Assembly: GCF_001874525.1 (NCBI RefSeq)
Contig: NZ_LKAQ01000004.1
Span: 1,044,937-1,108,936 of the forward strand
From: Pseudodesulfovibrio hydrargyri
Lineage (GTDB): Bacteria > Desulfobacterota > Desulfovibrionia > Desulfovibrionales > Desulfovibrionaceae
Length of the DNA: 64,000 nucleotides
Reading direction: 5' to 3'
The stretch's first letter is position 1. Every line of letters starts with the position of its first letter. The position numbers and the translations under genes are program-made. Positions 1-45,703 of this stretch are shown here, in pieces. The notes beneath the pieces were generated by a model. It ran no database searches. It was not told the origin of the DNA and saw nothing but the letters and a program-made list of their open reading frames with translations.

Positions 1-1
1 T

Positions 2-439
2 TTCAATCTAAAGCGACTGGGGTTCACGTTCTACGGAGATGCCTATAATGTTTCATTCTGGGGAATTTTGCTTCTCAGTTTCATTGTCGGCATAGTAGGG
101 GGAATCTACGGGATAGGGGGAGGATCAATAATTGCCCCGTTTTTTATAACTTTTTTCGAACTTCCCGTCTATGTCGTCGCAGGGGCCGCACTGATGGGTA
201 CTTTTGTCACATCAGTGGCTGGCGTCGTTTTTTATCAGGCCATCGCCCCATTCTATCCGAATCTTTCCGTGGCCCCCGACTGGCTGTTGGGAATTCTTTT
301 CGGAGTAGGTGGAATGGCGGGAATGTATCTTGGGGCTCGATGTCAAAAGTTTGTGTCAGCCAAGGCCATCAAGTGGATGCTGGCGGGTGTCATGGTGTTT
401 ACTGCAATCAAATACATCCTTAATTTCTTTGAATATTGA
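2..439 (+). CDS. TauE/SafE family sulfite/organosulfur exporter, C-terminal part (5' end outside window)
   Basis: The frame is open from the left window edge, so this is the C-terminal 145 residues of a longer membrane protein. It shows hydrophobic segments and the glycine-rich GGIYGIGGGSIIAPF motif typical of the second TauE/SafE repeat. Family members (about 250-300 residues) export sulfite, sulfoacetate or related sulfur anions across the inner membrane; the substrate here is unknown. A TTG at 68 is an in-frame candidate start, but the coding signal runs through it. A small Cys-rich gene follows 43 bp downstream. The DNA is AT-richer than the backbone, consistent with its place on an integrated island. 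Confidence 0.8.
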   Translation, partial: FNLKRLGFTFYGDAYNVSFWGILLLSFIVGIVGGIYGIGGGSIIAPFFITFFELPVYVVAGAALMGTFVTSVAGVVFYQAIAPFYPNLSVAPDWLLGILFGVGGMAGMYLGARCQKFVSAKAIKWMLAGVMVFTAIKYILNFFEY

Positions 440-482
440 AGAACAGCAGCCGACAATCCGCTCCCCTTCAGGAGGCGATGCT

Positions 483-698
483 ATGTGTACGAAGAGAGAT
501 ATTGAAGACATTCTCAAGCAAATTGGAGAAAGCCACGATCCCGATCATATTCGGCGACTCCTTGAAGAGATTAATGCATGCAGCAAATGTCCGGAGAATC
601 TTCAGTACCAGGATGACCAGGATTCAGTTTGCCGTTGTCGTCTAAATTTTCATATTGAACTCAAGAATCACATCTATGCGATTACAAACAAAAAATAG
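483..698 (+). CDS. small Cys-rich hypothetical protein (71 aa)
   Basis: The ATG at 483 has a strong AGGAGG ribosome site at 470-475. The 71-residue product is charged and helical at its N-terminus and carries CSKC (C33, C36) and CRC (C50, C52) plus C2. Such spacing could bind zinc or an iron-sulfur centre, or take part in thiol chemistry. No family was recognised. It lies just behind a TauE permease and faces the DsrE-like gene tail to tail, so a role in the same sulfur-related gene group is possible but is only inference. Confidence 0.55.
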   Translation: MCTKRDIEDILKQIGESHDPDHIRRLLEEINACSKCPENLQYQDDQDSVCRCRLNFHIELKNHIYAITNKK

Positions 699-776
699 TG
701 TATCCTTTTTGGCAGAGGGTCTTGCGGTTGCGTGCCCACCTCATTTGCAAATGTGATCGACAATGTTTCTCCGAAG

Positions 777-812
777 ACGTGGAAGGCACCTTTCCCAAGG
801 TGCCTGCCACGT
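777..812. terminator. inverted repeat between convergent genes
   Basis: Fourteen-base arms (777-790 and 799-812) pair with one mismatch around an 8-base loop, between the ends of the Cys-rich gene and the minus-strand DsrE-like gene. There is no clear T-run, so a Rho-independent terminator is possible but not classical. Confidence 0.4.
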
Positions 813-817
813 ATCAT

Positions 818-1138
818 CTAGTAGTTGAGAATCCTGTCCGCCTTGATCATTTCCGCATACAGGAATTTCATGCTGGACAACTTGACGTATTCGCTTTCAT
901 CCACCCCGTGGATGCTCAGGCACTTCCCTCAGGCTACCAGCACGCCCTCGCTCAGGGCGAACATCTTCGCCTGTTCGGCGATCGGGAATGCTTCCGAATC
1001 GCCCGCATACAAATCAACGGCACCGGCGTTCAGGAACAACGTGACGTCCTCGCCCTCGTTCAACAGGAAGTTACCGAAACGGACAGCGTTCCATTTCACT
1101 TCCGGGTCGTTGCTGGAAAGAATGATCAAGACCTGCAT
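818..1138 (-). CDS. DsrE/DsrF-family protein, probable selenoprotein with in-frame TGA (Sec70)
   Basis: Starting at the ATG complementary to 1136-1138 (AAGGAG ribosome site upstream), the frame reads MQVLIILSSNDPE to SEGVLVA, meets TGA at 931-929, then continues in frame for 36 residues as GKCLSIHGVDES to ADRILNY before TAG at 820-818. The total of 106 residues is a normal DsrE-domain length, and related proteins carry Cys (ACGxC) exactly where the TGA lies. A perfect 7-bp hairpin with a GGG loop begins 14 nt after the TGA, fitting a bacterial SECIS element. DsrE-fold proteins carry or transfer sulfane sulfur on a Cys; here selenocysteine would replace it in a U-G-K-C motif. If UGA is not decoded, the product is a 69-residue truncation. 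It is divergent from an ArsR regulator (151 bp apart). Confidence 0.8.
898..914 (-). promoter_or_regulatory. candidate bacterial SECIS hairpin
   Basis: On the minus strand CATCCAC and GTGGATG form a perfect 7-bp stem closed by GGG. The stem starts 14 nt and the loop 21 nt after the in-frame TGA at 931-929. Bacterial SECIS elements sit just downstream of the UGA, with a small apical loop containing G near its start. The hairpin lies inside the coding sequence of the DsrE-like gene. Confidence 0.7.
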
Positions 1139-1254
1139 AGAGGCTCCTTCTATTTGACATTGCCTAAGCATAGATTATTTCCATGCGAAGTTGAACAAAA
1201 ACCTCGGCAAGGCCATTGTTGGAAATGGGGGACTTTACGCCATTTTTAAATAAG

Positions 1255-1264
1255 TATATGCATA
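1255..1264. promoter_or_regulatory. AT-rich promoter/operator region of ArsR-like gene
   Basis: TATATGCATA at 1255-1264 lies in an AT-rich stretch 25 bp before the arsR-like start, in the divergent interval 1139-1289 shared with the DsrE-like gene. ArsR proteins usually bind AT-rich dyads over their own promoter. This assignment is a weak inference. Confidence 0.25.
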
Positions 1265-1289
1265 GACTCTTAAACAGATCGAGGTACGT

Positions 1290-1577
1290 ATGGTCAATTA
1301 TGAGAAACAAGCCAGAATATTCAAAGTCCTCTCGGTCGACACCCGCATCCGGATGCTGGAGTTGCTGAAAGGCGGGCCTTTGTGCGTGAACGCCTTGTCA
1401 AAAAGGTTGGGCATCACTCCGTCGGCTGTGTCCCAGAACCTGCGCATCCTGAGGGATGCGGACCTCGTGGTCGCGGACAAGCAGGGCTATTTCGTGCATT
1501 ACGGGATTAACCGGCAGACCATGACGGAATTGCGGTCCCTCGCGAACGGGGTGTTCAGCATGCCAAATTTGTTGTGA
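1290..1577 (+). CDS. ArsR-family winged-helix transcriptional regulator
   Basis: This 95-residue protein has the ArsR fold. It has an N-terminal helix with FKVLSVDTRIRMLELL, a recognition helix around residues 38-58 (LSKRLGITPSAVSQNL) and a wing ending in YFVHYGIN. It carries one Cys (LCVNAL) and lacks the ELCVCDL metal box, so persulfide, redox or another signal is as likely as arsenic. It is divergent from the DsrE-like gene and sits upstream of a TauE permease, suggesting sulfur-responsive control of both. GAGGT at 1281-1285 supports the ATG. Confidence 0.85.
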   Translation: MVNYEKQARIFKVLSVDTRIRMLELLKGGPLCVNALSKRLGITPSAVSQNLRILRDADLVVADKQGYFVHYGINRQTMTELRSLANGVFSMPNLL

Positions 1578-1583
1578 AATGGT

Positions 1584-1724
1584 ATGAATAGACAACCTGT
1601 GGAGAAACCCGCAACTCGTGCCGAAAGATTGCCTGGGGAGCAATTCGGTCGGTACGGCAGAAATGCCGAAGCGGTCGCGATGCGACTTTTTCCGATCAAC
1701 AGATTGAAACGGTACACCATCTAG
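1584..1724 (+). CDS. possible small ORF (46 aa), unknown
   Basis: A 46-codon frame (MNRQPVEKPATRAERLP, ending LKRYTI) starts 6 bp after the arsR-like stop and ends 61 bp before the TauE start. It has a basic, codon-plausible composition but no recognised domain and no strong ribosome site. It could be a small accessory protein or chance. Confidence 0.25.
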   Translation: MNRQPVEKPATRAERLPGEQFGRYGRNAEAVAMRLFPINRLKRYTI

Positions 1725-1785
1725 GTGGGCACGAGTCCCCGACCTGCCGCAAACAATCACCTGAACACATCGTCAAGGATCGCAT

Positions 1786-2547
1786 ATGACTGTTCCCGTT
1801 GTCCTGCTTGCGAGCATATTTCTCATCTCACTCCTACTGACCATGGTCGGCCTCGGCGGCGGGCTTGTCTTCTCGCCGCTGTTCGTGCTCCTGGGTATGG
1901 CGAAAGCCCAGGCGGCTGCGGCATCCTTGTTCCTGAACCTCACGGCGGCGGGGTCGGCGGCGTACGCCTATTCGCGAAAGGGGATGGTCGATTTCTCCCT
2001 TTCGATCCCGCTGATCCTATTTTCCGCAGCGGCCGCGCCGCTCGGCGCTTACCTGAACACCCGAATCGAGACGAAACCGTTCCTGATGATCATGGCCGTC
2101 ATTCTCTTTCTGGCGGCGATACGCATGCTATTTTCACCCAAAGGCGACAACCGAACGGTTGAACGGGCAAAAGCAACAAAAATCATCGGCGGGGCGACCA
2201 TCGGCGCGGTCACCGGCTTGATGGCCGGGCTGCTTGGAGTCGGCGGCGGGGTTTTCATCGTTCCCCTGCTGATCTTCGCCCTGAAGACGCCGACCAAGAC
2301 CGCTGCCGCTTCATCCACCTTCATCGTCTGCTTCTCCTCGCTCACCGGGTTCATGGGATACGCTTCCATGGGGGAGGTCGATTGGTATTTCCTTTTGCCT
2401 GCGGCGGTGGTCGCCTTTATCGCCGGTCAGGCCGGGGCGCGGCTCATGAATGCCCGGCTGACGGGCCGGACGGTCAGGCTGCTGTTTAGCCTGCTCCTGT
2501 TCGGGTTGTGCGCCAAACTGTTGCATCAGTGGTTTTCGGGGGTTTGA
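1786..2547 (+). CDS. TauE/SafE family sulfite exporter-like permease
   Basis: This 253-residue integral membrane protein has two related halves, each opening with a glycine motif: MVGLGGGLVFSPLF near residue 20 and LLGVGGGVFIVPLL near residue 150. About eight hydrophobic segments are visible, the usual layout and length for the family. Members move sulfite, sulfonates or similar anions; the substrate cannot be read from sequence. Its stop overlaps a potential start (TGATG at 2545-2549) of the following ABC ATPase, so it likely leads the long downstream operon. It is the second TauE homologue in 2.5 kb. Confidence 0.88.
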   Translation: MTVPVVLLASIFLISLLLTMVGLGGGLVFSPLFVLLGMAKAQAAAASLFLNLTAAGSAAYAYSRKGMVDFSLSIPLILFSAAAAPLGAYLNTRIETKPFLMIMAVILFLAAIRMLFSPKGDNRTVERAKATKIIGGATIGAVTGLMAGLLGVGGGVFIVPLLIFALKTPTKTAAASSTFIVCFSSLTGFMGYASMGEVDWYFLLPAAVVAFIAGQAGARLMNARLTGRTVRLLFSLLLFGLCAKLLHQWFSGV

Positions 2548-2603
2548 TGAATACGGTAAAGAGCAGATTGAAACAAGAATTAGTTCGGGGGGGGGCCATC
2601 CTG

Positions 2604-3584
2604 ATGAAGAATGAAGCAGTAGCGGTCGAAGACCTGAGCAAACGGTTCGATGGCGTGCAGGCCGTGGACGGCGTGTCGTTCGCCGTGGAGCGGGGGGAGT
2701 TGTTCGGATTCCTCGGGCCGAACGGGGCAGGAAAGACCACGACCATCAACATGCTGACCGGGTTGGCCCGCCCGGACTCGGGGGTAATTCGCCTGTGCGG
2801 CGTCGATTGCACCACAACCCCTAGGACCGCCCAGCACCTGATAGGGGTGGTCCCTGACGAAAGCAACCTCTACCCCGAGCTGACCGGATTCGAGAACCTG
2901 TGTTTCTGCGCATCGCTGTACGGCATCCGGAAGGACGAGCGCCGGGCGCGGGCAAGGGCGCTGCTGCGCGACTTCGACCTCGCCAAGGCGGCTGACCGAA
3001 AGTTCGGCGGGTACTCCAAGGGGATGAAGCGGAAGCTCACCATCGCGGCGGGCATCATCCACCGTCCGGACATCCTGTTCCTCGACGAACCCACCACGGG
3101 CATCGACGTGGCCAGCGGACGCCAGATACGCCAGCTCGTGGCCGACCTGCACCACGCCGGGACGACCATCTTCCTGACCACCCACTACATCGAGGAGGCC
3201 GAGCGGCTTTGCAACCGCATCGCCTTCATCGTTGCCGGGCGCATCGTAGGCATCGACTCGGTGGAACACCTGATTCAGCCCCTGCAAGGACGGCATGTCC
3301 TCGAAATCACCTGTCAGGAGGCCTTGACGGAAACGGTTCGTGAAGGATTGAGCCAGGCCTTCCCCCCGCTGGTCATCTCGCCCCCCGAGCAACATTCGAT
3401 CCGTGTGGAATCGGACTCCCCCGTGCACGTGGGGCCGTTGGTGCGCCGAATCGAGGAACAGGGATTCACGGTCACGGAGGCGCGGCGGGTGCGCCTCTCT
3501 CTTGAAGATGTTTTCGTGCAGATAACGGGCATAGAATCCGGCACCATGCATCACGAGAAAGAGATGAAGGGGGGAAAGAAATGA
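2604..3584 (+). CDS. ABC transporter ATP-binding protein (ABC-2 exporter type)
   Basis: The 326-residue ATPase shows Walker A GPNGAGKTT (residues 38-46), signature YSKGMKRKL, Walker B ILFLDEPTTGID and the H-loop TTHYIEEAE. A C-terminal extension of about 90 residues is typical of DrrA/CcmA/NodI exporters. ATG 2604 places the start just before the conserved domain after a G-run. ATG 2547, overlapping the TauE stop, is an alternative adding 19 residues. It overlaps the permease gene by ATGA at 3581-3584, so the two are translationally coupled. Substrate is unknown. Confidence 0.9.
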   Translation: MKNEAVAVEDLSKRFDGVQAVDGVSFAVERGELFGFLGPNGAGKTTTINMLTGLARPDSGVIRLCGVDCTTTPRTAQHLIGVVPDESNLYPELTGFENLCFCASLYGIRKDERRARARALLRDFDLAKAADRKFGGYSKGMKRKLTIAAGIIHRPDILFLDEPTTGIDVASGRQIRQLVADLHHAGTTIFLTTHYIEEAERLCNRIAFIVAGRIVGIDSVEHLIQPLQGRHVLEITCQEALTETVREGLSQAFPPLVISPPEQHSIRVESDSPVHVGPLVRRIEEQGFTVTEARRVRLSLEDVFVQITGIESGTMHHEKEMKGGKK

Positions 3585-4318
3585 ACAAGCTGATCGCCTT
3601 CTGGAACATATTGGCAAAAGACATGCGAACCTACTATCTGAAACCGCCGAACGTGAGCTGGGGCATCATCTTCCCCCTGGCGTGGACGGCCATGTTCTTC
3701 ATCCGCTCCGGGAGCGGGCTGGAAAGTATTCCGCAACTGCTTCCCGGCGTGGTGGCCATCTCCATTCTGTTCGGCACCACCTCCATGCTCGCGGTCACGG
3801 TGACCTTCGAGAAGAAAAACCGCTCCTTCGAACGGCTGTTGCTGGCCCCCATGTCCTTTGAGCTGCTCATGCTTGCCAAGACGAGCGGAGCGATCTTTTT
3901 CGGCGTGTGCAATGCCTTTGTACCCGTGATCATGGCTCTGTTCCTGACCGACCTCGCCGGGATCGCCTGGGCGCAGTTCATCCCCGCAGTGATCCTCATC
4001 GCGGTGGCCTCCACGTTCCAGGGACTGTTCATCGCAGTGGCCGTCAGCGAGGTGTTCGAGGCGCAGACCTTTTCCAACTTCTTCCGTTTCCCCATGATCT
4101 TCCTGTGCGGGCTCTTCTTTCCCATCGAGAGGCTGCCCGCCCTGCTCCAACCCGTGTCCTACGTCCTGCCCCTGACTTACGGGGCCGACGTCCTGCATGG
4201 TGCTGTCCATGGCGGCCACATCCTGCCATGGTACCTGGACTTGCCTGTACTCGGCCTGTTCTGTGCGGCGCTGTTCTGGGCGAGCCTTCGAAACATCAGG
4301 AGGCGGTGGATTGCCTGA
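3581..4318 (+). CDS. ABC-2 type permease (NodJ/DrrB-like)
   Basis: The 245-residue inner-membrane protein has six hydrophobic segments and the ABC-2 signature FRFPMIFLCGLFFPIERLP near residues 168-186. It pairs with the preceding ATPase (4-bp overlap) to make an exporter. The C-terminus overlaps the start of the ECF sigma gene by 8 bp. Together with the sigma/anti-sigma pair and the downstream LolCDE/MacB-like system it suggests an envelope-directed export module. Confidence 0.9.
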   Translation: MNKLIAFWNILAKDMRTYYLKPPNVSWGIIFPLAWTAMFFIRSGSGLESIPQLLPGVVAISILFGTTSMLAVTVTFEKKNRSFERLLLAPMSFELLMLAKTSGAIFFGVCNAFVPVIMALFLTDLAGIAWAQFIPAVILIAVASTFQGLFIAVAVSEVFEAQTFSNFFRFPMIFLCGLFFPIERLPALLQPVSYVLPLTYGADVLHGAVHGGHILPWYLDLPVLGLFCAALFWASLRNIRRRWIA

Positions 4319-4859
4319 TCGGTCCCGATCGCAACTTCCGGACGAAGCCCTGCTGGAAGCCTCGGGCAACGGGGACCGGCAGGCCTTCGGCGAACTCGTC
4401 CGACGGCACCAGTCCTGGGCCTGGGGCGTGGCCTATCGTTTCATTGGATCCAGGGACGAGGCCGAAGATATTGTTCAGGCCGCCTTCATCAAGTTGCTTG
4501 TCGCGTCGGGCCGCTATCGCCGTACCGCACGCTTCAAGACGTTCTTCCACGTCATCATATCCCGGCTCTGCCTGGATCATGCCAAAAGGGAGAAGCCCGT
4601 ACAGGCGGACGACTATCCGGAATTGGCCGACTCGTCTCCCGGACAGGAGGAGGCGCTGATGACGAGCCAGAACGCGGCCCGCGTGCGCCGGGCATTGGAC
4701 TCCCTTCCCCCCAGACCTCGCATGGCCGTCGTGCTTCGATACTACGAAGGGCTCGGTTATGATGAAATGGCCGTGGTTCTTGAAACGTCGCGGAAGGGTG
4801 TCGAGCGGCTGCTGTCCAGGGGACGCGAGGCGTTGCGGGAGAAACTGGGATCACGCTGA
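4311..4859 (+). CDS. ECF-type RNA polymerase sigma factor (RpoE-like)
   Basis: The 182-residue product has sigma-70 region 2 (AFGELVRRHQSWAWGVAYRF, then EAEDIVQAAFIKL) and region 4 (LPPRPRMAVVLRYYEGLGYD to VERLLSRGREALREKLG), with no region 3: an ECF factor. TTG at 4311 is chosen because AGGAGG (4298-4303) precedes it by 7 nt and the conserved domain starts soon after. The next gene encodes a zinc-finger anti-sigma, so the pair probably controls this operon or other envelope genes. Confidence 0.88.
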   Translation: MPDRSRSQLPDEALLEASGNGDRQAFGELVRRHQSWAWGVAYRFIGSRDEAEDIVQAAFIKLLVASGRYRRTARFKTFFHVIISRLCLDHAKREKPVQADDYPELADSSPGQEEALMTSQNAARVRRALDSLPPRPRMAVVLRYYEGLGYDEMAVVLETSRKGVERLLSRGREALREKLGSR

Positions 4860-4926
4860 ACTTTTTTCGATCGAAGGCGGGGGTTTTCCGAACTTGGATC
4901 GTTTAATAAAAATGAGGTCGACACAC

Positions 4927-5400
4927 ATGCTTTGCCGAAACTGCCATACACGTCTTTCTGCCTACCTGGACGGTGAACTGTCCGGGCGGGAGCTGTGGGA
5001 CATGAAACGCCATCTCGACGGTTGCGCGTCCTGCCGCGCCCACCTTGCCGAGTTGGAGGCGTTGGACGCACCGCTTGCCTCTCCGGGCACCCCGGAGATG
5101 CCGGGCGACCTGGAATACCGGATCATGGCCCGGGCTTCACGAGAGTATTTCGATGCCCGTGACACGAGCCGCTTCCGGGCGATTGCCCGTAGGTGGCTGG
5201 GGCCGACCGCCACGGCATCCGCCTTGGCGATCGGTCTGCTTCTGGGAGGATTGCTCGGGTGGAACAGCCATGGCGGACCAATTTCGGAACAGTCCACCCT
5301 GCGGACGGAAAATGCGGTCTTCGCATCCCTGAGCGCGGCCCCCGGCGGATCGATCGAGGCCGCGGTGCTGGCCGGATTCGACGGCGGAGGGAGGTTGTAA
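4927..5400 (+). CDS. zinc-finger (zf-HC2) anti-sigma factor, membrane anchored
   Basis: The 157-residue protein starts MLCRNCHTRLSAYLDGEL and carries the HxxxCxxC box HLDGCASC, the mark of ZAS-type anti-sigma factors that bind ECF sigmas. A single membrane helix follows (TASALAIGLLLGGLLGW, near residues 95-111), leaving a short periplasmic tail. ATG 4927 follows GAGG at 4914-4917; ATG 4912 is an alternative. It lies directly behind the sigma gene and before a Spy/CpxP-like periplasmic protein, a usual envelope-stress arrangement. Confidence 0.85.
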   Translation: MLCRNCHTRLSAYLDGELSGRELWDMKRHLDGCASCRAHLAELEALDAPLASPGTPEMPGDLEYRIMARASREYFDARDTSRFRAIARRWLGPTATASALAIGLLLGGLLGWNSHGGPISEQSTLRTENAVFASLSAAPGGSIEAAVLAGFDGGGRL

Positions 5401-5403
5401 TCC

Positions 5404-5901
5404 ATGCATTATCTGAAACGGTCGTTGCTGGCCTTGTCTGTGGGATTGAACATCGCCTTTGTCCTGTTCTGGGGCATGCAGTATTTTCAAGGACAAGATC
5501 CGGCGCCGTCAGGAGCGCCCCGCCGTTCGGGAGATCAACTTCTTACGGCGCGGTATGAAGGGGTCCAGGTGACTCCCGAACAATGGAAGGCGCTGGAGCC
5601 CAACGTGCTGGCCTTCAAGACCAACACCGATCGTATTCGCCGGGAAACGGTGCAGTTGCGAGAGCGGGTGCTGGAGTTGCTGGCCGAACCCGTTGCCGAT
5701 GAAGAGGCGATCCAGGCTATCCAGCAAAGAATTCTTTCGAATCAGGGCGGCATGAAAGACGAAGTGCTTCGACTTCTGCTCCGTGAAAAGGACGTGTTGC
5801 GGCCGGATCAGTTCTCCGTGCTGATACAGGCGATTCAGAATTACGGAGGCCGTGGTCCCGGATTTGGTGTAATGACCGGCGGGAAACCGGAACGCAATTA
5901 A
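5404..5901 (+). CDS. Spy/CpxP/ZraP-like periplasmic heavy-metal/stress sensor
   Basis: The 165-residue protein has an N-terminal signal-anchor (LLALSVGLNIAFVLFWGMQYF) and a helical, charged periplasmic region with LTxxQ-type elements (VTPEQW, LRPDQF), matching the periplasmic chaperone/metal-sensing family. It starts 3 bp after the anti-sigma stop. Such proteins buffer misfolded proteins or metals and often feed back on an envelope-stress sigma system. The ligand is not evident: Cys is absent and Met/His are few. Confidence 0.7.
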   Translation: MHYLKRSLLALSVGLNIAFVLFWGMQYFQGQDPAPSGAPRRSGDQLLTARYEGVQVTPEQWKALEPNVLAFKTNTDRIRRETVQLRERVLELLAEPVADEEAIQAIQQRILSNQGGMKDEVLRLLLREKDVLRPDQFSVLIQAIQNYGGRGPGFGVMTGGKPERN

Positions 5902-5948
5902 CGGCACGACCGGGGGATGCCCCTGAGTCATGCGTACAGGAGAAAATC

Positions 5949-6659
5949 ATGTCGCTGATCGAGCTGAACAGCATTTCGAAAAAATACCTGACGGGTCAGG
6001 TCGAAACCGAAGCCTTGAAACAGGTTACCGTGTCCATCGAAAAAGGGAAACTCGTCACGTTCGTGGGACCTTCGGGAAGCGGCAAGACAACGCTGCTCAA
6101 CATCATCGGTTGCATGGACAAGCCGTCTTCCGGGGAGGTCCGCGTGACCGACACCAGGGTGGACACCCTGGACAAGAAGGCGGCGGCGAATTTTCGCGGC
6201 AAGCATCTCGGTTTCATCTTCCAGTCGTTCAATCTCATCCCGGTCCTGAGCGTGTATGAGAATATCGAATACCCCTTGCTCATGATCTCCCGGACCCCCG
6301 CAGGCGAGCGGCGGGAACGCGTGATGGCCGTGCTGGAGGCCGTAGGCATGGCCGACCAGAAGGACAAGCGGCCGGACCAGATATCGGGCGGACAGAAACA
6401 GCGCGTGGCCGTGGCCCGGGCGCTGGTGACCAACCCGGACGTGGTGCTTGCCGATGAACCCACCGCGAACCTCGATCACGACACGGCCCACAAGATAATA
6501 GATTTGATGAAAAAGATGCGGGACACCTACGGGACCACCTTCGTCTTCTCCACCCACGACCCGCGCATCGTCGAACACGCCGACGTGGTGCACGGCATTG
6601 AGGACGGCAGGCTGCTGAACGGAAACCCGCTGTACCAGGGAGGAAAAGACCATGCGTAA
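5949..6659 (+). CDS. ABC transporter ATP-binding protein (LolD/MacB-like)
   Basis: The 236-residue ATPase has Walker A GPSGSGKTT (residues 40-48), signature ISGGQKQRVAVARAL, Walker B VVLADEPTANLD and STHD for the H-loop. The NLDHDT and LLNIIGCMD features are typical of the MacB/LolD/FtsE group, which drive mechanotransmission rather than solute passage. It overlaps the permease gene by 8 bp. With a FtsX-type permease, LolA-like protein and beta-barrel downstream, it may extract or shuttle a lipid or lipoprotein to the outer membrane. Confidence 0.92.
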   Translation: MSLIELNSISKKYLTGQVETEALKQVTVSIEKGKLVTFVGPSGSGKTTLLNIIGCMDKPSSGEVRVTDTRVDTLDKKAAANFRGKHLGFIFQSFNLIPVLSVYENIEYPLLMISRTPAGERRERVMAVLEAVGMADQKDKRPDQISGGQKQRVAVARALVTNPDVVLADEPTANLDHDTAHKIIDLMKKMRDTYGTTFVFSTHDPRIVEHADVVHGIEDGRLLNGNPLYQGGKDHA

Positions 6660-7905
6660 CATATTCAAGATCGCCCTGCGCAACCTTACTCGCTACAAAC
6701 GGCGTACCGCCCTCACCTCTCTGCTCATCGTCATCGGCGTGTGCATGGTGGTCATGTTCTCAGGCCTGGCCGGGTCGTTCAAGTCCATGATGATCGGCAT
6801 CATCACAGATTCAAGCATCGGCCACCTGCAAATCCATCGAAAGGGGTACTTCTCGTCCATCGACACGATGCCCCTCAACCTGAACATGAAAGGGCCGGCA
6901 TACCAAAAAATATCGGAAATGCTCGAAGCGACACCCGGTGTGACAGCCTATGCGCCCAGACTGAAATTCGGTGCGGTCCTCAGCAATTACATGGAAAGCA
7001 CCAACGTCAGGCTTTCGGCTGTCGATCCGAAACGGGAGCTGGCTGTCTGCACGGCCTTGGCTGACAGGATGAAGCAGGGAGCCCCCGGTCCCGGCGAGGG
7101 ACTGCTCGAAAAGGGCCAGGTCGTGGTTCCCGAAAAGGTGGCCAAGAGCCTGGGGATGAAGCCCGACGACTCCGTGGTGCTGGTTGCCACCAACAAGGAC
7201 GGCTCCGTCAACGGCATGGAATTCCAGATTGCCGGAATCATCGAGGACCTCATGGGACCGGGCGGCAAGGACGCCTACATGCACATCGAAGACGCCCGCA
7301 GCCTCCTGCGCACCGAACCGGGCGAAGTCACGGAAATCGTGGTCAGGGTGTCCGATTTCAACAAGCTGAAGCCTGTCGCAGCGTCGCTCGCGGCAACGCT
7401 CGGGGAGGTCAAGAACAAGAAGGGCCAGCCCGCCTTCGAACTGCACACCTGGGACAAGCTGTCGCCGTTCTCCAACATCGCAAACATGATTGACCTGATG
7501 CTGGTCACGGTGAAGATCGTCATGGTCGCCATCGTTCTTATCAGCGTGCTCAACGTGATGCTGATGTCGGTCTTCGAGCGCGTACGGGAAATCGGAACCA
7601 TTGCCGCCATGGGGACATCCCCCGGAACGATCATGTCGCTTTTCGTGGCCGAGGGCGTGCTCCTGGGCGTGCTGGGGACGGCGCTCGGCCTGATTCTGGG
7701 CGTGGGCGGTTTGTTGGCCTTCAAGGCGGCGGGAGTTGCCTTCTCCTTCGGACGGATGGACAACCTGATCGTGCGCCCGGACATCAATCCCGGCGAAATG
7801 CTCTTTTTGTCGGCCATCGTCCTGCTCGCCTCCGCCCTGGCGGCGCTGCAACCCGCGTGGAAGGCGAGCCGGATGGAACCCGTCGATGCGCTCGGGCACG
7901 TATAA
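6652..7905 (+). CDS. ABC transporter permease, FtsX/LolC/MacB family
   Basis: This is a 417-residue protein with one membrane helix near residues 20-42, a large periplasmic domain (about 45-270) and three C-terminal helices (NVMLMSVFERVREIGTIAAMG connects two of them). This is the MacB/LolCE four-helix layout. The C-terminus ALQPAWKASRMEPVDAL is the family-typical coupling end. It forms the transporter with the preceding ATPase. Confidence 0.92.
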   Translation: MRNIFKIALRNLTRYKRRTALTSLLIVIGVCMVVMFSGLAGSFKSMMIGIITDSSIGHLQIHRKGYFSSIDTMPLNLNMKGPAYQKISEMLEATPGVTAYAPRLKFGAVLSNYMESTNVRLSAVDPKRELAVCTALADRMKQGAPGPGEGLLEKGQVVVPEKVAKSLGMKPDDSVVLVATNKDGSVNGMEFQIAGIIEDLMGPGGKDAYMHIEDARSLLRTEPGEVTEIVVRVSDFNKLKPVAASLAATLGEVKNKKGQPAFELHTWDKLSPFSNIANMIDLMLVTVKIVMVAIVLISVLNVMLMSVFERVREIGTIAAMGTSPGTIMSLFVAEGVLLGVLGTALGLILGVGGLLAFKAAGVAFSFGRMDNLIVRPDINPGEMLFLSAIVLLASALAALQPAWKASRMEPVDALGHV

Positions 7906-7924
7906 CATCATGAGGATACCACAA

Positions 7925-8674
7925 ATGCATTACTTGAAATACGTTCTGTCCGTTGCCGCCGTCTGTCTCGTCCTTGCCGGGGGCTGGCCGGCGTCAGCCA
8001 TGGACGCCGGGGAAGTGCTCCTGGCCGTGGACCGCAACCTCGCCCCGGTCAGCTACGAATCCTACCGCAAGCTCATCAACATCGAGCCGGACGGGAGCAA
8101 AAGGGAATACGTCCTCTACACCATCAAGAAAGGCCAGGATATGGTGGCCTCCGTCTTCCTGGAGCCTTCCAGCGACAAGGGACGCGGGACCTTGCGCCTG
8201 GGCGACAACATGTGGCTCCACATTCCGAGCGTGGCCAAGCCGGTCAGGATAACCAGCCTCCAATCGGTAACGGGTGGCATCTTCAACAATGCCGATATCA
8301 TGCGCCTAGACTACAGCGCCGAATATACGCCCGAATCCTTGGAGGAAAGCGGTGACGCCTATTTGCTTCGCCTGAAGGCGAAGACCAACGAGGTTGCCTA
8401 CGACAGGCTGGAGATGCTGGTGGCCAAGGACCGGTTGGTTCCGACGGAGATCAAGTGTCTCGCGGCGTCCGGGATGCTGATCAAGACCCTGCATTTCAAG
8501 AAGATGACCGATTTCGGCGGCGGGTTCGTCCGCCCGGCCATTGTCGAGACGGACAGCCCGCTCCACAAGGGGTACCTCTCGGTGATGATCTTCGCCCGGA
8601 TGAAGGCCAGGGATTTCTCGGATGAAGTCTTCACCCTCAACTACCTGCCGCGGATTGAAACCCTTCGTCAGTGA
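7925..8674 (+). CDS. LolA-like outer-membrane lipoprotein-sorting protein
   Basis: The 249-residue protein has a signal peptide (VLSVAAVCLVLAGGWPASA, cleavage near residue 25) and a beta-rich periplasmic domain with LWxHIPSVAKPVRI and YDRLEMLVAKDRLVPTEI strands, typical of the LolA-like outer-membrane lipoprotein-sorting family. Such proteins accompany MacB/LolE-type ABC pairs and carry a lipid-like cargo. ATG 7925 is preferred (TGAGGA 9-10 nt upstream) over ATG 7910. It joins the next gene by TGATG overlap. Confidence 0.8.
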   Translation: MHYLKYVLSVAAVCLVLAGGWPASAMDAGEVLLAVDRNLAPVSYESYRKLINIEPDGSKREYVLYTIKKGQDMVASVFLEPSSDKGRGTLRLGDNMWLHIPSVAKPVRITSLQSVTGGIFNNADIMRLDYSAEYTPESLEESGDAYLLRLKAKTNEVAYDRLEMLVAKDRLVPTEIKCLAASGMLIKTLHFKKMTDFGGGFVRPAIVETDSPLHKGYLSVMIFARMKARDFSDEVFTLNYLPRIETLRQ

Positions 8675-10071
8675 TGGCGGGAAACGGAATGACGAAAGCA
8701 GGTACATGGCTCGGGCCGTTCTTCTGCATGGCGCTCATCCTGGCTGCCTCGGCTTCGGCCCTTGCCCAGGATGAGCCCCTGTATGATGCGGATTTTGATA
8801 TTTCCGCGACGGAAGAAAAGCACTTCGAGTTCTGGGGGCAGGCCGAGCTTCGGATGTACGAACGTCTTCTGAACAGGGATTCTGCGGTGTACGAGCAACG
8901 CTTCTTCGATTCCCCGAAGGACGAACTCCAGGCGGACCTGCTGTTCCAGCTCAAGCCCGAACTATCCCTGAAGTACGAGACGTTCGGGTTCTATGCCCGC
9001 CCGCGCGCCGACGTCGGATGGAGCCAGTTGCCCCTGTCGGCGGCCAGTGAACCGGACGAACCGTCGGAACGGTTTTTCAAGGACGACAAGCATTGGGCCG
9101 GGGAGGTCATGCTTGAGGAAGGCGTGGCCGCCTGGAGGCCGGACCCGAGATTCACGCTGGAAGCCGGGAAAAAGGTCCTCAAATGGGGCAAGGGATATGC
9201 CTGGAACCCCGTGAGCTTCGCCAGCCGTCCCAAGGACGTGGACGACCCGGACCAGAGCCGCGAGGGCTACGTCATGAGCGTCGCCGACGCCATCTTCAGT
9301 TTTGACGGTCCACTGAAGACGTTTGCGTTCACTCCGGTAGTTGTTCCCGTATGGGAGCGGGTAAACACGGGGCTGGCCTCGGATGACAGCGTTCTCTACG
9401 GGGGGAAGCTCTACTTCCTGCTTTCCGATGTGGACCTAGACGTCATGGTCATGGCCGGAGACTATTATGATACGTCCCTCGGCTTCGACTTTGCTATGAA
9501 CCTCACCGACAATTTCGCCATCCACGGCGAAACGGCGGTCCGGTTGGGCTACGAGAAGACGGTGTTCCACGATGACGGAACCCGCAGCGTTGACAAATAC
9601 GACGCTTGGAGCTTTCTTCTTGGTGCCCGATACCTGACCGAGGACGAAACGACCTATCTCCTTGAATATTACCACAACGGAGAGGGGTACACCGCTTCGC
9701 AACTAGAAACCTACTACGACTATGTCCACACGGCGTACGACACGTATCAGGCCACGGGGAACGCCGCCGACCTGAATAAAAGCAAAAAGGTATCGTCCGA
9801 TTACAACCGGAGCAGCGTCGGGCAGGACTATCTATATTTCCGCGTGTCCCAAAAAGAACCTTTCGACATCCTCTACCTGAACACGACAGCGACCGTGATC
9901 ATGAACCTCGGGGATCGAAGCCTCTCCCTCAACCCCGAAGCGTCCTACATGCTCACGTCCGACATCGAGTTGAGGCCCCGCCTCATCCTGCCGATCGGGG
10001 GCTCCGACACCGAGTTCGGCAACAAGCTCAACGCAGCCAAGGGCGAACTCCGGTGCGTGTACTATTTTTGA
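8674..10071 (+). CDS. outer-membrane beta-barrel protein of the LolA-like/ABC module
   Basis: The 465-residue protein has a cleavable signal peptide (ending SASALAQ) and many alternating hydrophobic/aromatic strands, ending in aromatic YYF, the usual C-terminal outer-membrane beta-signal. Conserved-looking W/K/G motifs (AGKKVLKWGKGYAWNPVSF) resemble barrels that partner LolA-like proteins in other proteobacteria. It is the last gene of the envelope operon and could be the exit or acceptor for the exported substrate. ATG 8674 overlaps the preceding stop; ATG 8689 is an alternative. Confidence 0.72.
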   Translation: MAGNGMTKAGTWLGPFFCMALILAASASALAQDEPLYDADFDISATEEKHFEFWGQAELRMYERLLNRDSAVYEQRFFDSPKDELQADLLFQLKPELSLKYETFGFYARPRADVGWSQLPLSAASEPDEPSERFFKDDKHWAGEVMLEEGVAAWRPDPRFTLEAGKKVLKWGKGYAWNPVSFASRPKDVDDPDQSREGYVMSVADAIFSFDGPLKTFAFTPVVVPVWERVNTGLASDDSVLYGGKLYFLLSDVDLDVMVMAGDYYDTSLGFDFAMNLTDNFAIHGETAVRLGYEKTVFHDDGTRSVDKYDAWSFLLGARYLTEDETTYLLEYYHNGEGYTASQLETYYDYVHTAYDTYQATGNAADLNKSKKVSSDYNRSSVGQDYLYFRVSQKEPFDILYLNTTATVIMNLGDRSLSLNPEASYMLTSDIELRPRLILPIGGSDTEFGNKLNAAKGELRCVYYF

Positions 10072-10515
10072 TCCGAACACCGAATTATTGAGCTTGCACC
10101 AATTCCCCCCCCGTTTCTCTTTCCGGCAAATTTTGCGTGTCACCCAAGTGTCATTTTCAACGGCAACTATGGTTTTTGTGGTGAATATGGCGTCTTCAAC
10201 CCATTGAAATAACGTAGGTAAGCAACCTTCCGGTTGATTGTTTACGGCCTTTCACGCCGTTAACAAGAATTCAAAGTGGATCTCATCACTGGTCGACCAG
10301 CACGTTTCCATGACCGAGTGCAGCGCGCCGACTGTCCGTGAACGTGTTCTCAGCATTCTTGAGCGCAAGCGACAAGGTCTACTGCACCTGTGTCAATGAT
10401 GGAAAATTATCATTGGCACAGGGTTTGCCCGCAACAGCGTATCTGTTTGAAACCTTGAGCCAGAGGGCCGGAGGGGATACAAGAGCGCCAAGATCAACTA
10501 ATCCTTGGGGCCCAC
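10072..10515. other. gene-free AT-richer interval with a 14-bp inverted repeat
   Basis: No convincing gene is seen. The main structure is the inverted repeat 10387-10400/10409-10422. The rest is mixed composition and may hold the promoter of the nuclease gene and the terminator of the envelope operon, but no T-tract hairpin is evident. Confidence 0.4.
10387..10422. repeat. inverted repeat (operator or hairpin candidate)
   Basis: CCTGTGTCAATGAT (10387-10400) pairs with ATCATTGGCACAGG (10409-10422), one mismatch and an 8-base AT-rich spacer. It lies about 95 bp upstream of the nuclease gene. It could be a protein-binding dyad or a transcript hairpin. Confidence 0.45.
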
Positions 10516-11608: not shown

Positions 11609-13393
11609 TTACAGTTGCTTTGATCGAGTAGCTATCCACTTTTGCAAGTCCTCAAGATCCCAGTCATAGTGTGTCTGCTCCGGTGGAGCGGGAGTTCCAT
11701 CTAGCTTAACAAATGGACCACCTGCTACAATGGATTCAGGCGGTACGGATTTTTTATAAATGAATCTTTGCCAGACGACCTTTTCATTTACTCTTCGTGG
11801 CGGTGGACAGAAACATGCATAATATAGGGTCCTGTCAGGCATATCTGTATGTTCGCCACCGATTTCAAAAACAGCTACCCGATCTGGGAAAAAAGTAATT
11901 TTGCGGACAACCCGTCTCAACTCGGCGGTCAACTCCCCGCGAAGTCTTGACGCTTCTTCTTCATCTGCATTTTTCAACTTTTCGGCCAAGGCCGTGATGT
12001 TGGACTGCCTTTTTTTGATAGACGGCTTTACCTGGCTTTCTGCAAGTCGATCTTCAAGGTCTAGGATTCTTTCCTTACAACCCCTAACGTCCTCGTGCAT
12101 GTCCCGGATGCGTTGCTCGACTTGCGGGATGGAGTCGGCCCCGAAAGACTCGACTAGCTTGTCCAAGGTTCTCGTGCTTTCCGCTAGTTCGGCTTGCGCC
12201 TTTTTCAGTTCCTCCTGAAGGTCCGGCTTATGGATTGTCTTTTCCTCGCCGATGGAGTCCAGGTCGATTTCTCGCAGGAGGCCATCAAGGAGCGCTTGTT
12301 CAATCCGGGCATACTGGTGGAATGAGGCGTGTTCACAGTTCGTCCCGCGACTCCGGCCATCACAAACGAGATATTTGTCTTTGGGACGGGCAGTGCGCAA
12401 ACGCATGGCACACCCACACAATCCGCAACGAGCGACTTTCCTGAAAATATTGGTCACAAACCCCTTTTTCCCCTTCCCTCCCGTGTCGGGCTTCAATTTC
12501 CTCCGCTTGGAAGCAGCCCTTGCCCTAAGCCATGTCTCCTCGTCAATCACCCGGGGCCAGTAGCCATGTACGGGGTCGCCGAACGGAACCCGCTTCCCCC
12601 CTTGGCGTTTACCACCAGTGTACGGCTGGTATTCACCTAAAACCGATCTTTCATCGACGATTTTGCCAACGTATGAAGCCGACCAACCATTCTTGGAACG
12701 GCCCCAAGTCGGAATCTTCTCTTCGTTAAAACGCATGGCGATCATGCGTCTTCCGTACCCGGTGATCGTCTCCGCGAACATCCGCTTGATTAACTCAGCC
12801 CTTTCCGGGATCAGGATGTATTTGCCCTGGTCAGCGGAATACTCGACCCACGCCGGATGGAGACCGCCGATCGGGACCCCCCTTTTAGCCAAACGGTGCT
12901 TGTTGTCCCACATCGCACCGAGCCGTTCGGATTTCCGCTCGGACTCCTCGTTCGCCCTCGCCATGATCCCGAGGCAAATTAGCAGATCACTGAAATTGTC
13001 GTTGATGTTCTCGTGAGTGTATGTTTTCCCGTTTTCAAGAGTATGGATTTTTATGCCCGCGCGGACGATCTCACGGAAAACGTCGAAAGCGTCCAGAACC
13101 TTGGCGCGGGAAATTCGGTCCAACGACTCGACGACTAGGACCGAACCGCATGGGATTTTGCTTTCGCGAACAAGAGACAGAAACTGTCCCAGCGCCCCTT
13201 CGGTGACGTTGGCCGAGGTGTATGCCGAAACACCAAGGTCCCGCAGATCATCATCGAGAACAAGCCCGTTGGCTTTCACGTATCTATGTGTCGCCTCAAG
13301 TTGCCTTCGCAAGCTGTCGCCATGAAGCTGTTTTTTTGACGACATCCTTATATAGCTGTATGCCTTTGTTTTTTTCTTGTTTGATTTTGACAT
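11609..13393 (-). CDS. large serine recombinase/integrase
   Basis: The 594-residue protein begins with a serine-resolvase domain: YSYIRMSS with catalytic Ser18, EATHRYVKANG, VESLDRISR. It is followed by a recombinase domain (PIGGLHPAWVEY to GKIVDERSVLGEYQPY), a zinc ribbon (CGLCGC and CDGRSRGTNCEH) and a coiled coil (LQEELKKAQAELAESTRTL). This is the large serine integrase plan used by phages and integrative elements. Starts at 13402 or TTG 13429 are alternatives. The gene begins about 40 bp from the point where comM sequence resumes, marking the right end of an integrated island. Confidence 0.93.
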   Translation of the reverse strand: MSKSNKKKTKAYSYIRMSSKKQLHGDSLRRQLEATHRYVKANGLVLDDDLRDLGVSAYTSANVTEGALGQFLSLVRESKIPCGSVLVVESLDRISRAKVLDAFDVFREIVRAGIKIHTLENGKTYTHENINDNFSDLLICLGIMARANEESERKSERLGAMWDNKHRLAKRGVPIGGLHPAWVEYSADQGKYILIPERAELIKRMFAETITGYGRRMIAMRFNEEKIPTWGRSKNGWSASYVGKIVDERSVLGEYQPYTGGKRQGGKRVPFGDPVHGYWPRVIDEETWLRARAASKRRKLKPDTGGKGKKGFVTNIFRKVARCGLCGCAMRLRTARPKDKYLVCDGRSRGTNCEHASFHQYARIEQALLDGLLREIDLDSIGEEKTIHKPDLQEELKKAQAELAESTRTLDKLVESFGADSIPQVEQRIRDMHEDVRGCKERILDLEDRLAESQVKPSIKKRQSNITALAEKLKNADEEEASRLRGELTAELRRVVRKITFFPDRVAVFEIGGEHTDMPDRTLYYACFCPPPRRVNEKVVWQRFIYKKSVPPESIVAGGPFVKLDGTPAPPEQTHYDWDLEDLQKWIATRSKQL

Positions 13394-13424
13394 GTCTAGC
13401 ATGTTAATATGTTGTCCAAATAAA

Positions 13425-13440
13425 AACAAGTCCCTGCCCC
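13425..13440. other. probable right attachment junction (island/comM)
   Basis: Similarity to ComM starts at 13432 with codons for PCPCGYLSDATHPC; the preceding codon is AGT where Asn is expected. The recombinase start lies just to the left. The crossover should therefore be in or next to CCCTGCCCCTGCGG. The matching left junction is outside the window. Confidence 0.55.
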
Positions 13441-13914
13441 TGCGGCTACCTGTCCGACGCGACCCACCCCTGCTCCTGCTCGCCGCTGGCCGTGCAGCGC
13501 TATCGAAGCAAGATATCCGGCCCGCTCCTGGACCGCATCGACCTGCACGTGGACGTGCCCGCCGTACCCTACGAAGACCTGCGCCAGACCCGCTCCGAAA
13601 TGGACTCCACCACCATGCGCGCTCGCATCCTTCAGGCCCGGCAAATCCAGGCCGATCGTTTCGCAGGCCGCCACTTCTCCCTCAACGCCGAACTCGACGG
13701 CGCGGCTCTGGAGGAATTCTGCGCCCTGGGCGAGGCCGAACACCGCTTCCTGCGCCAGGCCGTCGAAACCCTGGGCCTGTCCGCCCGCGCCTACACCCGC
13801 ATCCTGCGCATCAGCAGGACCATCGCCGACCTCGCCCAAGCCGACAGCATCGGGCCCGACCACCTGGCCGAAGCCATCAACTACCGCAGCATGGACAGGG
13901 AAGGCGCGAGCTAG
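13432..13914 (+). pseudogene. comM: comM/yifB (Mg-chelatase-like AAA ATPase) 3' fragment interrupted by the island
   Basis: The frame encodes about 160 residues from PCPCGYLSD through GPLLDRIDLHVDVPAV to the C-terminal Mg-chelatase helical domain (AYTRILRISRTIADL). Intact ComM/YifB is about 500 residues, so the N-terminal two thirds, including Walker A, are missing here and presumably lie at the other end of the island. ComM is a hexameric helicase aiding branch migration in natural transformation. There is a start-like ATG at 13492, but a product without Walker A would not be an active ATPase. Confidence 0.88.
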
Positions 13915-44773: not shown

Positions 44774-45076
44774 GACCGTGCTCCTCGGAATTGACTCCAC
44801 TCGATGCCGCCGCAAGTATTCCCTACCATGAGTAGAATGGGCACTGTTTTTTGTCAACGTACGTATTGTGCATAATTCCTAATGGTTAGTTTGTGCAAAA
44901 ACCCAGGGTCAGTTTTGTGTCCTGGGTTAGAGCCGGACATGCCTATCCGAGCGGGCACCCGGTCGGGGAGAATCGGTTGGTCGCGTGGTGAAGATTCGGC
45001 CGCATGTGTTTCGCGCATCCGGCCAAGCTCGCGGCAGGGCTTTACAGGCCCGGATCGGTCCCGTAGACCGGAAAGC
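44774..45076. other. divergent promoter interval (RTX and CAT-like genes)
   Basis: It is AT-rich at 44845-44890. A minus-strand TTGACA lies at about 44854-44859 but without a good -10. No gene is seen besides weak open frames. Confidence 0.4.
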
Positions 45077-45703
45077 ATGAAGACACTCGACCTGCACGAC
45101 TGGCCCCGAAAGAGCCTGTACGACTATTTCCGGACCCTGCCCTCGCCCCATTTCTCCCTGACCGCCGACGTGGACGTGACCGCGCTCATCACCAAGGCCA
45201 AGCCGCGCGGCATCGCCCCGTTCAGCGCCGTGCTCTACGCGGTCATGCGCGCCGCCAACCGCATCCCCGAGTTCCGCCAGCGGCTCGACGGCCCGGACGT
45301 GGTCGAGTTCGACACCGTCCACCCCGCGCCCACCGTGCCCATCGACGGTGACCGCTTCGCCTTCTGCTATTTCGACTACGCCGACCGCTGGCCCGACTTC
45401 GACCACGCCTGCGCCCGGGCCATCGAAACGGGCAAGCAACAGACCGAACTCAAGGACGATGCCGCCCACCGCCTGGACCTCGTCTTCACCACCTGCCTGC
45501 CCTGGCTGCACTTCACCTCCATGCACCACCCGGTCCAGGGACCCGACGACTCCTTCCCCCGCGTCGCCTGGGGTAAATTCACCGAACAGAACGGCCGCTG
45601 GACCATGCCCGTCAACCTCCAGGTCCACCACGCCCTGGCCGACGGCCTGCACGCCGGACGGTTCTACCAGTACATGCAGGAGACCCTGGACGGGTTCGAG
45701 TAG
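45077..45703 (+). CDS. CatA-type chloramphenicol acetyltransferase-like protein
   Basis: The 208-residue protein has the acetyltransferase fold and active-site HHALADGLHAGRF (the family HHxxxDG with catalytic His), plus WLHFTSMHHPVQGPDDSFPR. It should transfer acetyl from acetyl-CoA to a hydroxyl; chloramphenicol is only the best-known acceptor. Length is close to the family's 210-220. Confidence 0.85.
   Translation: MKTLDLHDWPRKSLYDYFRTLPSPHFSLTADVDVTALITKAKPRGIAPFSAVLYAVMRAANRIPEFRQRLDGPDVVEFDTVHPAPTVPIDGDRFAFCYFDYADRWPDFDHACARAIETGKQQTELKDDAAHRLDLVFTTCLPWLHFTSMHHPVQGPDDSFPRVAWGKFTEQNGRWTMPVNLQVHHALADGLHAGRFYQYMQETLDGFE

Follow-up and report, generated by a model that had tools for sequence, protein, structure and literature searches.

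A DsrE-like selenoprotein gene on a mobile unit in Pseudodesulfovibrio hydrargyri

The stretch of DNA analysed here, 64,000 nucleotides of Pseudodesulfovibrio hydrargyri (the window), contains near its start a gene that gives a single 106-residue DsrE-domain reading on the minus strand, from an ATG at 1138 across an in-frame UGA (TGA at 931-929) to a TAG at 820-818 (Table 1), exactly at the coordinates given by an earlier sequence-only reading of the locus. The UGA is at residue 70, with 69 residues ahead of it and 36 behind, and the motif that it opens is UGKC, that is, of the UxxC type. Assignment to the DsrE family, also proposed by that reading, is borne out by Pfam, whose DsrE model (PF02635) covers residues 1-105 of the read-through protein (29.7 bits, cut-off 22.7). 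An automatic caller, it was further suggested, would report a 69-residue stub; the mechanical list of open reading frames has 80 residues, from an earlier ATG (1171) to the TGA. Searches of NCBIfam with the selenoprotein and of the PDB with its single sequence gave no match, while a PDB profile search returned, next to one chance match, Escherichia coli YchN (1jx7). This protein, the sole convincing solved relative by profile, has a Cys-x-x-Cys that aligns with the Sec-G-K-Cys of the window protein, although it is a Cys protein rather than a Sec protein and the match is weak (E 0.00023).

The gene has TauE/SafE permease genes on both sides, and diverges from an ArsR/SmtB-family regulator gene that starts 151 bp away. 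The palindrome between the two divergent genes, in which one or two bases are changed in the copies that are 93% identical, is possibly the operator of this regulator. At 34.5 bits against the TsoR model (cut-off 115), the regulator is not TsoR, and it also lies far below the cut-off of the BigR model. The published Tso and SAO systems likewise have selenoprotein genes in operons, and the TsoR of NCBIfam is also of ArsR/SmtB type; the window differs from them in having one recognised selenoprotein gene and a different regulator. A small Cys-containing protein of 71 residues is encoded between the selenoprotein gene and one of the TauE genes.

Table 1. Features of the window discussed in the text (positions are those of the window; L195 is the locus record that extends ahead of it)
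Feature	Position	Strand	Remarks
Part of the ~15-kb mobile unit	1..10275		89-99% identical blocks in relatives
TauE/SafE permease, second gene, cut by window start	2..439	+	73.5 bits
71-residue Cys-containing protein	483..698	+	no Pfam or NCBIfam match
DsrE-like selenoprotein gene	818..1138	-	106 codons and TAG stop
SECIS-like hairpin, 7-bp stem, GGG loop	898..914	-	starts 14 nt 3' of UGA
Selenocysteine codon (very probable), in-frame UGA, residue 70	929..931	-	site identical in 80/80 kept loci
Ribosome binding site AGAAGGAG	1144..1151	-	5 nt ahead of ATG, read directly
Palindrome AGTATATGCATAGACT	1253..1268		between divergent genes; 10-nt arms, 90% complementary
ArsR/SmtB-family regulator	1290..1577	+	HTH_5 49.8 bits; NF033788 77 bits, cut-off 55
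TauE/SafE permease	1786..2547	+	158.2 bits
Damaged tRNA-Glu 3' repeat, right end of unit	10244..10275	+	first 22 bases kept
Large serine recombinase, at right junction of outer insertion	11609..13429	-	Resolvase, Recombinase and Zn_ribbon_recom domains
yifB/comM 3' part	13435..13914	+	5' part at L195:13823-14905 (Pfam Mg_chelatase, ChlI)

Whether this UGA is decoded can be judged from its relatives. Among 395 genomes searched across the phylum, 76 gave a DsrE match; 63 of these have a TGA within at least one match and 13 have none (the position of the TGA within the match was confirmed for the fetched loci, 61 rows). Of the 36 genomes of the genus, 11 match the selenoprotein, and each of the 12 matches contains a TGA. 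Two peptide patterns, both placed in the N-terminal half and clear of the UGA, were used to scan a collection of genomes from named species and yielded 93 confirmed loci, 80 of which were kept, and in every one of these the TGA falls at one common site (three of these Sec rows read AUQK, AUQK and AUSK around it). Such recurrence excludes a base-calling error, and the TGC that might have replaced the TGA on resequencing did not appear. Past the UGA, no stop interrupts the frame before its usual end in 79 of the 80 loci, the exception (L136) being a broken copy with a further TAG soon after the UGA, and the residues encoded there are conserved among relatives, as the sequence-only reading had supposed. 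Two other relatives (L058 and L059) are broken by further stops. A separate broken relative, L081 (in genome G196), has CGA where the UGA stands, and together with L063 (G148), a Cys form that retains six of the seven hairpin pairs described below, it possibly represents a stage in the loss of Sec.

Selection was compared on the two sides of the UGA using six chosen relatives, four of which gave a number (the ratio was saturated for L108 and L117). For the parts after and before the UGA, respectively, dN/dS was 0.07 and 0.28 against L107 (where the first value comes from only three synonymous changes and one non-synonymous), 0.12 and 0.09 against L109, 0.16 and 0.12 against L110, and 0.12 and 0.16 against L112. 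In these comparisons, the part behind the UGA is under purifying selection like the part ahead of it. A pseudogene with an accidental stop is rejected by the common site of the UGA, the open and conserved 3' frame and these dN/dS values below 1 in the four pairs.

The hairpin consists of CATCCAC (914-908), a GGG loop (907-905) and GTGGATG (904-898), as it had been described from the sequence, and has the feature reported for bacterial SECIS elements, a hairpin just 3' of the UGA with a G in a small apical loop (PMC1088965). Taken alone it is unexceptional, since 25 of 300 synonymous recodings are equally stable, and the Rfam models at their gathering threshold match a single tRNA and no SECIS in the whole window. 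The comparison across relatives is another matter. As the conserved peptide (I/L)HGV(D/E) itself produces part of the palindromic look, the null chosen was the synonymous recoding of each gene with local codon usage. In the near clade, the 27 Sec rows compared (the broken L058 and all Sec rows numbered L086 or higher are left out, whereas L059 with its further stop is included) make 185 of 189 pairs, against 137.4 under the null (sd 4.4, maximum of 2000 recodings 153). The 80 named-genome loci comprise 76 distinct sequences, which make 523 of 532 pairs where the null gives 391.0 (sd 7.0, at most 416 in 1000 recodings), and 68 of the 76 make all seven pairs. The position of the hairpin after the UGA is fixed across relatives, all but one of the 80 loci have a GGN loop, and stems exist that differ on both sides (CCTCCAC/GTGGAGG, CCTTCAC/GTGAAGG, CATCCAC/GTGGATG and CGTCCAC/GTGGACG). 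In a 12-row alignment, the proportion of paired cells is 97.6%, as compared with 27-55% in shifted registers, and the covariation score was equalled in one of 500 shuffles, while the number of pairs with a two-sided change, which is two, was equalled in 84 of 500. In a control on 10 of the 12 Cys-form rows, nine make at most four of the seven pairs; L063, which alone among the Cys forms falls on the same side of the tree as the window protein, makes six, and this could be a relic. With pairing so far above the synonymous null, a chance hairpin is rejected.

The host has the machinery that selenocysteine insertion requires, which the sequence-only reading had asked to be looked for: selA (608.6 bits) and selB (386.8 bits), less than 6 kb apart on contig C1, tRNA-Sec (79.6 bits, cut-off 47) and selD (329.2 bits), which has an in-frame TGA of its own. 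Across the phylum, selB is over its cut-off in 72 of the 76 genomes with a DsrE match, including 61 of the 63 with a TGA-holding match (the two others being G009, which is 85% complete, and G033, which is in 290 contigs). It is also found in 11 of the 13 genomes with TGA-free matches, and this co-occurrence is therefore weak evidence when taken alone. A single frame through the UGA, a conserved hairpin and the Sec machinery together make it very probable, on sequence evidence, that the UGA is read as selenocysteine. That the UGA is instead a genuine stop, with a 69-residue stub as the product and the downstream reading accidental or decayed, is highly improbable, for although a UGA can always terminate and broken copies do exist among relatives (L058, L059, L081 and L136), the frame behind it is open in nearly all loci, its dN/dS is well below 1 in each pair that gave a number, and the hairpin is conserved.

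Proteins of this kind have been known for some time. DsrE-like selenoproteins were described in 2005 in a survey of the Sargasso Sea, which lists UxxC as a redox motif, a bacterial survey of 2006 reported one for Desulfovibrio vulgaris, and the GOS survey of 2008 names 'DsrE 1' and 'DsrE 2' selenoproteins with the motif UxxC. According to a 2026 review, the DsrE-like selenoprotein (UxxC) is listed as predicted and is among those largely uncharacterised in function; the excerpts of the literature examined assign no function to the family. The window gene thus joins a family known since 2005, as a well-supported addition and not as a new family. It shares with the published proteins the domain (PF02635), Sec as the first residue of UxxC and a SECIS after the UGA, D. 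vulgaris being among the listed hosts, and it differs in lying on a mobile unit (the published proteins being compared by description only). D. vulgaris is now classified in Nitratidesulfovibrio, and the group to which the window protein belongs also holds two Nitratidesulfovibrio loci (L121 and L123) and one from Desulfovibrio sp. A2 (L130), at 58-61% identity.

The published UxxC motif does not hold across the wider family sampled here, in which the second Cys is missing from 41 of 80 loci. At the third position after Sec, the 80 loci divide into 39 with Cys, 35 with Leu, five with Ser and one with Ile, so that Sec is the fixed element of the set and the second thiol is not. The UGKC noted in the sequence-only reading is therefore present in the window protein, although its second Cys is not a family trait. 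A quick tree was built from 124 of 141 entries (left out were identical copies, rows shorter than 95 residues and those containing other stops), with the Sec and third-position columns masked, and 60 of its 121 inner forks are open. The 112 Sec and 12 Cys rows fall into this one alignment and tree, with the UGA at the place of the Cys of homologues, as had been proposed. The tree needs four changes between Sec and Cys and six changes of the second Cys, and it sets a GKC-type Sec group, which includes the window protein, apart from a VUGVC-type Sec group of 18 rows around which Cys forms lie. The counterparts of these two groups in the GOS survey may be 'DsrE 1' and 'DsrE 2'. In one genome, the full gene is followed just downstream (G391:C1:4107134-4107241) by another match, at 47%, which covers the final 36 residues of the selenoprotein and is perhaps a partial duplicate.

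The integrated, mobile element postulated around the gene is real. GC content is 0.48-0.62 over the initial 10 kb of the window, lower than in most of the preceding 80 kb and in the stretch beyond 14 kb, although other dips exist. The left end of the mobile unit is 4.9 kb ahead of the window start, and the unit is shared by four relatives: G409 (99% over 16.4 kb, flank included), G433 and G401, the latter in two places (89% over about 15.25 kb), and G432 (91% over 12 kb, the copy being apparently the same record as L107). It sits at tRNA-Glu in G433 and G401. In G433, an intact tRNA-Glu gene marks one boundary and an identical 49-bp copy of the 3' part of this gene the other, 16.9 kb away, and one of the two G401 copies is delimited in the same way (one mismatch in the repeat, 16.9 kb). 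For the other G401 copy, G409 and G432, the stretches read contain the repeat on one side only. The damaged repeat of the window was not found by a scan for the 49 bases with up to 12 mismatches. At its left end, within the shared part, the unit has a tyrosine recombinase gene (L195:15106-16062; Integrase_1 38.2 bits, cut-off 23). Four copies of the unit (both in G401, and those in G432 and G433) have ATA in place of the ATG of the selenoprotein gene and keep its ribosome binding site; they would be impaired unless translated from a rare start codon. The unit also encodes, about 1.7-0.6 kb before the window (L195:18251-19366), a tyrosine-recombinase-like domain fused to molybdate-binding TOBE/Mop domains, a protein that we take to resemble the tungstate regulator TunR of Desulfovibrio. 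Searches with the selenoprotein gave no match in phage records and five in plasmid records, all from Natrinema, Natronorubrum or Haloferax (30-37% identity).

This unit lies in turn within an 18.5-kb insertion that splits a gene presumably of the yifB/comM type, and TCCCT can be read at both junctions (L195:14905 and window 13435). Among 20 relatives examined for the 5' part of yifB, the frame is open over 512-630 codons in 15 (one with a TAA inside) and shorter in five (363 codons in G409, 362 in G411, with a TAG, and 374, 389 and 455 in three others); G409 is the only relative in which the same junction as in the window genome was seen. The gene may be a repeated insertion target in the genus. 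The large serine recombinase at the right junction was considered as the carrier of the selenoprotein gene and rejected, since the stretch in common with relatives stops short of it and it has no match in any of the five records behind named loci (a search run without a positive control). For these reasons, the tRNA-Glu unit is the better candidate. What lies here is, then, a genuine and well-supported selenoprotein gene on a genuine mobile element, a gene functional only in Sec-decoding hosts and yet carried by a mobile element, a case absent from the titles and abstract openings of the five papers that a search on selenoproteins with mobile elements and horizontal transfer brought up.

As for what the protein might do, the closest mechanistic precedent is the sulfur relay of DsrEFH/TusBCD, since in Allochromatium DsrEFH sulfur on DsrE-Cys78 is reported to be passed to DsrC-Cys111 (PMC3397948). 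The window protein has the same DsrE domain with Sec in place of the carrier Cys, but no recognised DsrF/TusC or DsrH/TusB partner adjoins it (the flanking genes scanned with Pfam being those for ArsR, TauE and the 71-residue protein), and the one DsrC gene of the genome lies elsewhere. By analogy with DsrEFH, Sec70 would stand in for the sulfur-carrying Cys of DsrE/TusD proteins. Loading with sulfane sulfur (or with selenium) would give a selenosulfide, from which the cargo would go on to DsrC, a low-molecular thiol or a similar acceptor. The divergent ArsR-type regulator would sense reactive sulfur or metal(loid) stress and control both the selenoprotein gene and the TauE/SafE permease, and the module would travel as cargo of the tRNA-Glu-integrating element. 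To this explanation as a whole, from Sec-DsrE and its carrier mechanism to ArsR control and element cargo, we give a roughly even chance.

Gene context in relatives bears on the carrier role. A DsrC-like gene is found 20-106 nt upstream in six loci (L140, L142, L143, L159, L170 and L177, from Desulfobulbus, Desulfobulbaceae or without assignment), preceded in five of them by a second one and accompanied in five by a selB-like gene close by downstream, which was confirmed by model for the genome of L142 (the DsrC-like naming comes from Pfam runs on L142 and L149 only). Further upstream in L142, L143, L159 and L177 is a rhodanese-rubrerythrin-type gene (the rhodanese model was run on L142). In L173, a NifS-like cysteine desulfurase gene overlaps the start of the selenoprotein gene (E 2e-140, below the curated cut-off of the model). 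These DsrC-like and cysteine desulfurase neighbours suggest a sulfur carrier with one selenol. Context differs elsewhere and is thus suggestive rather than uniform; in L115, L124 and L136, for instance, the gene is flanked by what we take to be ilvN-like and ilvC-like genes.

The better placed of the two alternatives, which we regard as unlikely, is that the protein is a Sec-based redox enzyme (a peroxidase or reductase). It draws on the redox reading of UxxC in the 2005 paper and on a thioredoxin-reductase-like gene (Pyr_redox_2 type) that follows the selenoprotein gene in L173 and is near it in L185 and L186 (Pfam was run on L185 only), but a fold family that takes in the sulfur carriers DsrE and TusD and the sulfur-handling neighbours just described speak against it. 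Absence of the second Cys from half of the loci likewise argues against an obligatory disulfide-type cycle at UxxC, and, with Sec present in all 80, one selenol is probably what is needed and not a thioredoxin-like pair.

Somewhat less probable again is a role of Sec as a metal(loid) ligand, for instance for mercury or arsenic, in a metalloregulated resistance protein on a mobile island. This would suit a divergent ArsR/SmtB regulator that exceeds its NCBIfam cut-off, an island that encodes ABC transporters and a protein with a 'Metal_resist' domain, and the link that the 2026 review draws between many other transport-type selenoproteins and metal resistance. However, an ArsR cluster lies within 4.5 kb in only eight of 81 loci, window included (a count in which gene picking may have missed some), and ArsR-type proteins such as BigR sense sulfur compounds too, far below the BigR cut-off as the window protein is.

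A broader and more tentative proposal, which we hold to be possible but rather less than even, is that the Sec-DsrE/ArsR/TauE module is regular cargo of a family of tRNA-Glu-integrating elements and travels between sulfate reducers already able to decode Sec, sometimes with two copies per genome, and that its selenoprotein is a sulfane-sulfur carrier with a single selenol and a dispensable second thiol. Concrete tests of function for such a protein follow from the genes that adjoin it in relatives, from the absence of the second Cys in many loci and from the regulator that the compact mobile module brings along. As a separate observation, the window encodes at 44882-45703 a protein of the chloramphenicol-acetyltransferase family (Pfam CAT, 105.7 bits).
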